NCBI RefSeq assembly: GCF_007994985.1
Contig: NZ_VOQF01000014.1
Coordinates: 1 to 64,000, forward strand
Length of the DNA stretch: 64,000 bases
Reading direction: 5' to 3'
From: Metabacillus litoralis
GTDB lineage: Bacteria; Bacillota; Bacilli; Bacillales; Bacillaceae
The position numbers and the translations under genes are program-made. Each line of letters opens with the position of its first letter. Position 1 is the first letter of the stretch. Shown here in pieces: positions 49,761 through 53,205 of this stretch. Under the pieces are notes generated by a model that searched no databases, was not told where the DNA came from, and saw only the letters and a list, made by a program, of their open reading frames with translations.

Positions 49761-50204
49761 ATGTTTTATCAGTTAAAAATAGCAGAAGAAAAGGATCTTG
49801 GTAGATTAACAGATTTTGTCGAAAAAGCTGGTGTAAGTTCTGATGGTGTATCAGAAATTATTGATTATTTTGTACTAATGGAAAATGGAGAAAATGAGAT
49901 TGTTGCGACTATTGGCGTTCAACCATTAAATGAAAATGGATTGTTAAGGTCTTTAGTAGTGTCAGATAAGCTTAAACAAGCACATATCCTAACACTTTTC
50001 CAAAGTATTCAAACATTAGCTGAGAAAAAAGGTATTAATCATTTATTTTTGGTAACTAATAAAGAAGCATCAGTTCAATTTTTATCACTAATGGGCTTCG
50101 AAGAGATAGATTTTAAAGCAATTCCAAAGGATCTTTTAACTTTAGAGCATATGAATGGCTCACTTAAAGAAGAAAATGCAAAGATTATGAGAAGAACTGC
50201 TTAA
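49761..50204 (+). CDS. ywlB: GNAT-family acetyltransferase YwlB
   Basis: 147-residue N-acetyltransferase of the GCN5 fold: GENEIVATIGVQPLNENGLLRSLVVSD (strands 3-4) and LFLVTNKEASVQFLSLMGFEEID near the end. The acetyl-CoA pyrophosphate loop is degenerate, so the activity is uncertain. ATG 49761 has GGGGTGAG at 5 nt; the ATG at 49743 lies before this site. Position is that of B. subtilis ywlB. Confidence 0.85.
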   Translation: MFYQLKIAEEKDLGRLTDFVEKAGVSSDGVSEIIDYFVLMENGENEIVATIGVQPLNENGLLRSLVVSDKLKQAHILTLFQSIQTLAEKKGINHLFLVTNKEASVQFLSLMGFEEIDFKAIPKDLLTLEHMNGSLKEENAKIMRRTA

Positions 50205-50707
50205 TATCCACACAGTTATCCACATTACTGCAAGTCTTATCCACAAATTGTGGATAAGACTTGTTTTATTATAGGACTTCTTTTATACTTTCAAGAGTCA
50301 AGAATCTACAAAACCGCGAAATTTGTAGATAAATCGAACGGTTGCAAAAGGAGTTATTATAGATGAAAACGAAACTTTGGACTGTGGATGATCTTAGTAA
50401 CTTATCCACTAGTTATCCACAAATCACACAGGCAGCAGATTTTATCCGAAATAATGAGGTTGTCGCTTTTCCAACTGAAACGGTGTATGGGCTAGGAGCA
50501 AATGCATGCTCAGATGATGCTGTAAGAAAAATCTTTGAAGCAAAGGGTAGACCAAGCGATAATCCACTAATTGTCCACATTGCATCAATTGAACAGCTAG
50601 AGGAAATCGTTGAAGATGTATCTGGTTATGCCTATCAACTAATTAAAGCCTTTTGGCCGGGTCCATTAACACTAGTATTAAGAAAAAAGGCAAATCAGTT
50701 ATCCACA
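50204..50707. promoter_or_regulatory. DnaA-box cluster at ywlB-ywlC
   Basis: Perfect TTATCCACA boxes at 50216-50224, 50237-50245, 50249-50257 (reverse strand), 50413-50421 and 50699-50707. One-mismatch boxes lie at 50204-50212 (ATATCCACA), 50402-50410 (TTATCCACT) and 50571-50579 (TTGTCCACA). Three perfect boxes and one variant lie between the two genes, the others within ywlC. B. subtilis has DnaA-box clusters outside oriC that bind DnaA stably; I recall one at ywlB-ywlC. A role in titrating DnaA or in controlling ywlC is inferred. Confidence 0.85.
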
Positions 50708-51409
50708 TTCGTGACGGCGGGCTTAGATACAGTTGCAGTGAGAATGCCAAATCATCCAGTTGCTTTAGAGATCATTGCTAAATCAGGGGTCCCGGTCGCT
50801 GCGCCAAGTGCGAATCGATCTGGAAAACCAAGTCCAACACAAGCTAACCATGTCTATCATGACCTTGATGGAAAAATAAGCGGAATCATTGACGGAGGCC
50901 CAACAGGTGTTGGTGTTGAATCAACAGTCCTTGATTGTACATCAGATATCCCAACAATCCTTCGACCAGGTGGAATAACAAAACAACAACTAGAGTCAAT
51001 CATTGGAAAAGTTAATGTCGATCAAGCACTAATTGAAGAAGGTCATACTCCAAAATCACCTGGAATGAAATACACCCATTACGCACCAAATGCACCTGTT
51101 GTGATCATAGATGGAAGTCATAAATATATGCAAAACATAATTAATCAATATGAAGAGCAAGGTAAGAATGTAGGTGTACTCACAACAGAAGAAGGATTAA
51201 ATCACTTTCAAGCACAAAAAGTAATTGCCTGTGGAACGCGTAAAGACCTGAATACAGTTGCAGCAAATCTTTATGACGTACTACGCCAATTTGATAAAGA
51301 AGAAGTTGACGTTATTATAAGTGAAAGCTTCCCCCTAGATGGAGTCGGTGAAGCAATCATGAACAGATTACTAAAAGCAGCAGGAAACAATGTGATTGTG
51401 GAAGAGTGA
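50363..51409 (+). CDS. ywlC: Threonylcarbamoyl-AMP synthase (Sua5 type)
   Basis: Makes threonylcarbamoyl-AMP from threonine, bicarbonate and ATP for the t6A37 tRNA modification. 348 residues, so the long two-domain form: YrdC domain (about 20-210; FPTETVYGLGANACSD, KGRPSDNPLIVHI, VAAPSANRSGKPSPT) plus C-terminal Sua5 domain. The linker KSPGMKYTHYAPNAPV is characteristic. Start ATG 50363 with AAAGGAG. DnaA boxes lie in its promoter region and inside the gene, which is unusual. Confidence 0.94.
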   Translation: MKTKLWTVDDLSNLSTSYPQITQAADFIRNNEVVAFPTETVYGLGANACSDDAVRKIFEAKGRPSDNPLIVHIASIEQLEEIVEDVSGYAYQLIKAFWPGPLTLVLRKKANQLSTFVTAGLDTVAVRMPNHPVALEIIAKSGVPVAAPSANRSGKPSPTQANHVYHDLDGKISGIIDGGPTGVGVESTVLDCTSDIPTILRPGGITKQQLESIIGKVNVDQALIEEGHTPKSPGMKYTHYAPNAPVVIIDGSHKYMQNIINQYEEQGKNVGVLTTEEGLNHFQAQKVIACGTRKDLNTVAANLYDVLRQFDKEEVDVIISESFPLDGVGEAIMNRLLKAAGNNVIVEE

Positions 51410-51584: not shown

Positions 51585-51714
51585 GGTTGATTGTAGCGAA
51601 AGGTGCGAGACTCCTGCGGGAGCAGCGGGACAGGTGAGATCCCACAGGCGCTTGCGCCGAGGAAGCTCACCGCACGCCCCGCGGAAAGCGAGCAACCTGT
51701 AGCGGAAATCAACC
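51585..51714. repeat. GC-rich intergenic element, subtype A, copy 3
   Basis: 130 bp, GGTTGATT to AATCAACC, same orientation as the copy at 11387, in the ywlC-mntP gap (431 nt). The rest of the gap is AT-rich, and I do not see a manganese riboswitch. Confidence 0.85.
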
Positions 51715-52440: not shown

Positions 52441-53205
52441 ATGATCGAATCATTTAAAGTACATATGACCCAATTAAACGAGGAAAGAAATATCAGAATC
52501 TATCTTCCAAGAAAATATGAGAAAGAAGATAAACGATATCAAGTGCTGTATATGCATGATGGACAAAATGTTTTTCAAAGTACTGATGCAATTGGTGGTG
52601 TTTCTTTAGAATTAGAAAACCATTTAGATGATAATGGTATAGAGATAATCGTTGTAGCAATCGATCAAAATAGTAAGAAACGAGTAGATGAATATTGTCC
52701 ATGGGTGAACGGTGAATATAGCAAGGAAATCTTTGGTTTGACTGAAACAACAGGTGGCTCTGGGAAAGAATATATTGATTTTGTTGTTAACGATCTAAAG
52801 CCACTTATCGATAGAAAGTACCGAACAAAAAAAGATGTAACTTCAATTGCAGGTATTTCATTAGGTGGATTAATCTCCACTTATGCTGCATGCTGTTATC
52901 CACAAGTGTTTAAGAAAGTCGCAGTATTATCTTCTGCTTTCTATAGAAATCAGGAACAAATAGAAAAACTTTTAATAGAAACAGATTTATCTTTTGTTAA
53001 TGGATTTTATATCGATTGCGGAACAGCAGAGGCGAAGAAGGATATTAGAATTAGTGAAGAGTTTTTGGCTTCAAATGAAAAAATCTATCATATTTTAAAT
53101 AAGAAGCATCATCATGTTATATTTGAAAAGCATCATGATGCAGAACATAGCTATACGGAATTTAAAAAAAGAGTTCCGAAGATGATTTCTTTTATAATAG
53201 ATTAA
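52441..53205 (+). CDS. Esterase of the alpha/beta hydrolase (putative esterase) family
   Basis: 254 residues, cytosolic. Fold features: RIYLPRKYEKEDKRYQVLYMHDGQN at the start, the nucleophile elbow GISLGG (Ser about 143), an acidic residue in DCGTAEAKKD and a C-terminal His in EHSYTEFKKRV. Relatives include siderophore and acyl-glucan esterases; the substrate is unknown. It starts 39 nt after mntP with AGGGAGA, so cotranscription is possible. The 355-bp element begins directly after its stop codon. Confidence 0.82.
   Translation: MIESFKVHMTQLNEERNIRIYLPRKYEKEDKRYQVLYMHDGQNVFQSTDAIGGVSLELENHLDDNGIEIIVVAIDQNSKKRVDEYCPWVNGEYSKEIFGLTETTGGSGKEYIDFVVNDLKPLIDRKYRTKKDVTSIAGISLGGLISTYAACCYPQVFKKVAVLSSAFYRNQEQIEKLLIETDLSFVNGFYIDCGTAEAKKDIRISEEFLASNEKIYHILNKKHHHVIFEKHHDAEHSYTEFKKRVPKMISFIID

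Follow-up and report, generated by a model that had tools for sequence, protein, structure and literature searches.

DnaA boxes at the ywlB-ywlC junction of Metabacillus litoralis appear to share bases with a terminator, a promoter edge and codons

Introduction

In the 64,000 nucleotides of Metabacillus litoralis DNA analyzed here (contig NZ_VOQF01000014.1, positions 1 to 64,000; hereafter the window), DnaA boxes are crowded around the junction of ywlB and ywlC, which raises the question of what keeps them there, some of them within a coding sequence. The genes in this neighbourhood follow the order spoIIR, a ywlB-like GNAT acetyltransferase gene (49761-50204, + strand), ywlC (50363-51409, + strand) and a gene for an MntP-like protein. 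The ywlC gene encodes a Sua5/TsaC-type threonylcarbamoyl-AMP synthase, which catalyses the first step in the t6A modification of tRNA. A previous sequence-only reading had pointed to the density of boxes at this place and to the use of similar clusters in B. subtilis; we compared the region with the rest of the genome and with relatives across the order, and weighed what could account for it.

Box content and genome background

A pattern search of positions 50204-50707 recovered the five perfect TTATCCACA boxes of the sequence-only reading (50216+, 50237+, 50249-, 50413+ and 50699+), while its three one-mismatch boxes proved to be five (50204+, 50324-, 50383-, 50402+ and 50571+). The single perfect box that it had noticed elsewhere, at 52896 (+ strand), is indeed the only other one in the window. 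Its estimate that chance would supply far less than one box also stands: the genome (Metabacillus, 4.88 Mb) contains 86 perfect boxes in 4,884,777 bp, thus ~0.009 are expected per 504 bp, and five within 492 bp have a Poisson probability of ~5e-13 per 504-bp stretch, which is not chance. Clusters were then ranked by the number of perfect boxes per 504 bp from the genome-wide pattern list; ywlB-ywlC ties for first place with a cluster on the rlmH/htrC side (C75:196292-196568), so its density is not ordinary for this genome. The half of oriC upstream of dnaA has 4 perfect boxes in 220 bp, fewer than the junction. The remaining dense clusters are found at oriC (rpmH-dnaA-dnaN), trmE/jag, gcp/ydiF and yqeG, the flanking genes being named from their translations.

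Four boxes precede the ywlC promoter region. The first, detected by pattern search with one mismatch (ATATCCACA; 50204-50212, + strand), overlaps the ywlB stop codon (50202-50204) and occupies a position common to most congeners; 12 bp further on comes a perfect box (50216-50224, + strand) that has 0-1 mismatch in congeners. The other two form the inverted pair of perfect boxes already recognized in the sequence-only reading, with its left arm at 50237-50245 (+ strand) and its right arm at 50249-50257 (- strand), both perfect in 21/21 genus genomes. A weak box with one mismatch (TTATCTACA; 50324-50332, - strand) lies in the ywlC 5' leader and is shared by the closest relatives only. The same leader holds a second inverted repeat at 50303-50333 (ATCTACAAA ... 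TTTGTAGAT), which includes part of this weak box; CTACA...TGTAG arms resembling it are seen in some congeners, not all.

Conservation and chromosomal position

The position had been suspected to be conserved, and this holds well beyond the genus. In each of the 21 genus genomes, the interval from -300 to +400 relative to the ywlC start codon contains 6 to 11 boxes at matching offsets, those of the window being -159, -147 and -126 (+ strand), -114 (- strand), +20, +39 and +50. A comparison of boxes with their flanks, as proposed earlier, gave 4.97 perfect boxes per kb in the -300/+400 region versus 0.06 in the rest of the loci of the genus. The cluster is present in most of 89 further genomes of the order, and at least 4 boxes were found in some genome of 43 of the 45 Bacillales families sampled. 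When this region was dinucleotide-shuffled in 110 genomes, 0.01 perfect boxes and 0.25 boxes with at most one mismatch arose per 709 bp, versus ~2.9 perfect boxes observed per locus. Farther out among the Bacilli, boxes at +20, +32 and +50 persist in several cases, and some of the lineages examined there have no boxes at ywlC.

In 25 relatives with both genes on one contig, ywlC lies on the left arm at 128-552 kb from dnaA; these distances come from the relatives, the genome of the window being divided into 75 contigs with dnaA on another one. In one congener (G003; L031 and L032) ywlC is broken into two frames that overlap (residues 1-115 and residues 102-348), due to either a frameshift or an assembly error.

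Predicted terminator hairpin and promoter

The inverted pair of perfect boxes (50237/50249) is also the core of a predicted RNA stem, G-CAAGTCTTATCCACAA-A-TTGTGGATAAGACTTG-TTTTATTAT, a role missed in the sequence-only reading. The complete element (50230-50264, + strand) has a 16-bp stem, a 3-nt loop and then TTTATTAT; folding gave 16 pairs, -23.8 kcal/mol and a z-score of -7.3, so that a stable stem, a short loop and a T-tract directly 3' are combined as in intrinsic terminators. Moreover, the bases flanking the boxes co-vary among 74 loci sharing the 12-bp register of the inverted boxes, with C-G, T-A and G-C at the first pair and all four Watson-Crick types represented at each of pairs one to three. 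The flanking paired run averages 3.22, whereas 2000 re-pairings averaged 1.19 and never exceeded 1.84; kinship among the loci inflates this test somewhat, and the 53 loci from the order alone, spread over many families, agree. Since DnaA should need no complementarity beyond the 9-mer, this covariation points to an RNA hairpin and so to a ywlB terminator. Sequence, folding and covariation together support the view that the inverted pair doubles as the stem of a candidate ywlB terminator. Literature searches for DnaA boxes located in terminator hairpins retrieved nothing relevant. The yqeG/sda, gcp/ydiF, trmE/jag, yydA and oriC clusters of Bacillus have counterparts here beside the genes where they would be expected, and these, unlike ywlB-ywlC, have no inverted box pair giving a long hairpin and T-tract; neither has any other cluster of this genome.

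A candidate ywlC promoter (50261-50289, + strand), also missed in the earlier reading, abuts the pair; it consists of TTGTTT (50261-50266), a 17-bp spacer and TATACT (50284-50289), and its -35 overlaps the base and the T-tract of the terminator. Conserved hexamers 17 bp apart suggest a promoter of the SigA type, the -35 agreeing with consensus at 3/6 positions (a weak match to TTGACA) and the -10 at 5/6; a general promoter scan of the region did not return TTGTTT-N17-TATACT among its candidates. In 21/21 genus genomes the predicted promoter is identical and its -35 begins exactly 3 bp past the right-hand box. A promoter-like pair follows a box in 48/110 loci, in 41 of these at exactly 3 bp, and after shuffling such a promoter occurs anywhere in ~3% of upstream regions. 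The exact fusion of promoter and terminator belongs to only about half of the loci, and several families have the boxes without the hairpin or without a ywlC-type promoter.

Probable DnaA control of ywlC and uptake of DnaA

The locus is already known from B. subtilis, where DnaA binds the ywlB-ywlC junction in vitro. In vivo, binding in that species is easily seen at eight regions, which coincide with the eight strongest in vitro, and the junction is among them (PMC4447404). In that species ywlC is repressed by DnaA (PMC12112137), and expression of a PywlC-lacZ fusion is lowered in a mutant whose DnaA level is raised about twofold (PMC12112137; PMC8203912); the fusion includes 240 bp before and 73 bp after the start codon (PMC12112137). 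The Metabacillus cluster sits at the orthologous position (PMC4447404), downstream of ywlB and upstream of ywlC, and like its counterpart has many boxes and, in congeners, an oriC-proximal place on the left arm. It also shares with the Bacillus clusters outside oriC the presence of several 9-mer boxes per few hundred bp, far above genome background, and their conservation across relatives. Its distance to dnaA is ~266-301 kb in closed congeners versus ~440 kb in B. subtilis, where the summit of the ywlC region is at 3772105 on a chromosome of ~4.2 Mb (PMC4447404).

We infer that DnaA binds at ywlB-ywlC in Metabacillus, and we consider it likely (roughly 85%) that this cluster is the orthologue of the B. 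subtilis ywlC cluster, repressing ywlC and taking up DnaA, in combination with a terminator. DnaA, mainly in its ATP form, would bind the four upstream boxes (50204-50257) cooperatively, as well as the boxes just past the start codon (50383-50421) and the outlying ones at 50571 and 50699. The bound protein would cover the ywlC promoter or bracket it on both sides, possibly by looping or by a filament across the promoter between the upstream and the 50383-50421 boxes, and would thus repress ywlC; the repression itself is what was shown in B. subtilis, and the geometry and its action in Metabacillus would be an extension of it. As the last upstream box ends 3 bp before the -35, DnaA on this right-hand box would abut RNA polymerase, which fits the known repression. 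Near oriC, the cluster would moreover take up DnaA and help to delay initiation together with other clusters, an effect that B. subtilis shows for six clusters jointly: deleting those six outside oriC leads to early initiation (PMC5295017). The pair forming the ywlB terminator stem in RNA, a single stretch of DNA would be DnaA site, terminator and promoter edge, and the same few bases appear to serve all three, and a part of the YwlC code.

A simpler proposal is that the cluster only draws DnaA off oriC, its nearness to ywlC and to the promoter being incidental. Such pure titration agrees with the early initiation of the six-cluster deletion, with the partial relief obtained when one cluster was put back at various locations (PMC5295017), and with the oriC-proximal position conserved in the 25 relatives; yet the exact 3-bp spacing between box and -35 points to gene control too, the box offsets to the start codon are conserved, and repression of ywlC is known in B. 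subtilis, so we regard titration as the sole function as rather improbable. The sequence-only reading had named both titration and gene control as uses of B. subtilis clusters outside oriC, in line with the published evidence (PMC12112137, PMC5295017). E. coli datA is likewise a box cluster outside oriC and lowers initiation; it acts together with IHF and stimulates hydrolysis of the ATP bound to DnaA.

Boxes within the ywlC coding sequence

Three boxes follow closely after the start codon: one with one mismatch on the - strand (50383-50391; codons 8-10, Val-Asp-Asp), often perfect as Val-Asp-Lys/Asn in other families; one with one mismatch on the + strand (50402-50410; codons 14-16, Leu-Ser-Thr); and a perfect one on the + strand (50413-50421; codons 17-20, Ser-Tyr-Pro-Gln). 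The leader residues VDK/VDN (VDD in the window), LST and YPQ are thus encoded by DnaA boxes. Further along, a one-mismatch box (TTGTCCACA; 50571-50579, + strand) covers Ile-Val-His of the conserved Sua5 motif PLIVHI, and a perfect box (50699-50707, + strand) covers codons 113-115, Leu-Ser-Thr, in part of the genus only.

That boxes inside ywlC deserve attention had been remarked before; the codon choice that holds them had been overlooked. Counting codons only where the box-encoded residues occur, Val8 is GTG in 81/85 genomes versus 28% elsewhere in ywlC (P = 2e-14 with one vote per family), and the third base preceding it is T in 74/85 versus 32% (P = 1e-8, one vote per family). The Pro of YPQ is CCA in 42/42 versus 37% and the Ser of LST is TCC in 26/27 versus 11%, with P = 3e-11 and P = 6e-4, respectively, again with one vote per family. 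Box-type codons are over-represented at the 50571 match as well (GTC in 67/105 versus 17%). To judge from these codon counts, the boxes within ywlC are kept by the choice among synonymous codons.

These counts bear on a further alternative, namely that the resemblance to DnaA boxes is fortuitous, the inverted pair having no role but termination and the coding matches reflecting a conserved peptide. The hairpin is a good terminator candidate and the 50571 match sits in PLIVHI, as such a coincidence would have it; however, outside the hairpin there are boxes on either strand, synonymous codons that match a box are far above background in dozens of families, the coding registers differ between families (+20, +32, +39, +50 and +76), as would be expected if boxes rather than one peptide are selected, and the B. 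subtilis orthologue is bound by DnaA. We rejected mere peptide conservation because of the synonymous-codon bias, the varied registers and the boxes outside the hairpin, and consider coincidence very unlikely. A second or cryptic replication origin, suggested by a box density resembling that of oriC, was rejected as the least credible reading of all, since dnaA with its flanking box clusters is on another contig in the standard rpmH-dnaA-dnaN order, the neighbourhood is an ordinary chromosomal spoIIR-ywlB-ywlC one, and the conserved promoter and terminator account for the spacing.

Box-free leaders retain parts of the peptide (e.g. L100 and L108), thus the ywlC leader peptide itself may be older than its boxes.

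Possible overlapping functions and related clusters

To the locus as known from B. subtilis, DnaA control of ywlC with uptake of DnaA being our preferred reading here too, the present analysis adds a predicted merging of the DnaA site with a terminator and the edge of a promoter, as well as the constraint on codons; in the accessible literature, the main 2012 study (Okumura) apart, we found no statement of the hairpin, the promoter abutment or the codon constraint. Conservation this deep across Bacilli indicates that ywlC has long been under DnaA control and that this control is strongly selected, to the extent that codons within an enzyme gene are fixed; the locus supports control by DnaA clusters as a general feature of Bacilli. 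It also lends itself well to studying overlapping codes, and to asking if read-through is affected by DnaA located at a terminator and promoter. More tentatively, and with less than even odds, a segment of ~60 bp could be under overlapping selection for DnaA binding, ywlB termination and the start of ywlC transcription, with the inner boxes shaping the amino acids of the enzyme's leader; DnaA might then set both ywlB read-through and ywlC initiation and so couple DnaA supply to the t6A modification of tRNA.

Genes for tRNA modification adjoin three conserved DnaA clusters, ywlC (tsaC), gcp (tsaD) and trmE (mnmE), which may be a coincidence. Downstream of ywlC, a GC-rich stretch at 51590-51700, around cgagactcctgcgggagcagcgggacaggtgagatcccacaggcg, resembles a dispersed Bacillaceae repeat.

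Two additional clusters were observed in this genome. One of them, L003:1516-1685 (C9:43015-43184), has 3 perfect and 3 one-mismatch boxes within ~170 bp, adjoins an N-acetylmuramoyl-L-alanine amidase-like gene and is absent from the eight B. subtilis regions; at the matching place, ~540 kb from dnaA on the other side, 4 perfect boxes are packed into 100 bp in the closed congener G006. The second, L007:1116-1336 (C75:32115-32335), has 2 perfect and 4 one-mismatch boxes between thioredoxin-reductase-like and short-chain dehydrogenase genes; its DNA is conserved in part in 21/21 genus genomes, and its counterpart in G006 has 4 perfect boxes within ~530 bp at ~180 kb from dnaA.
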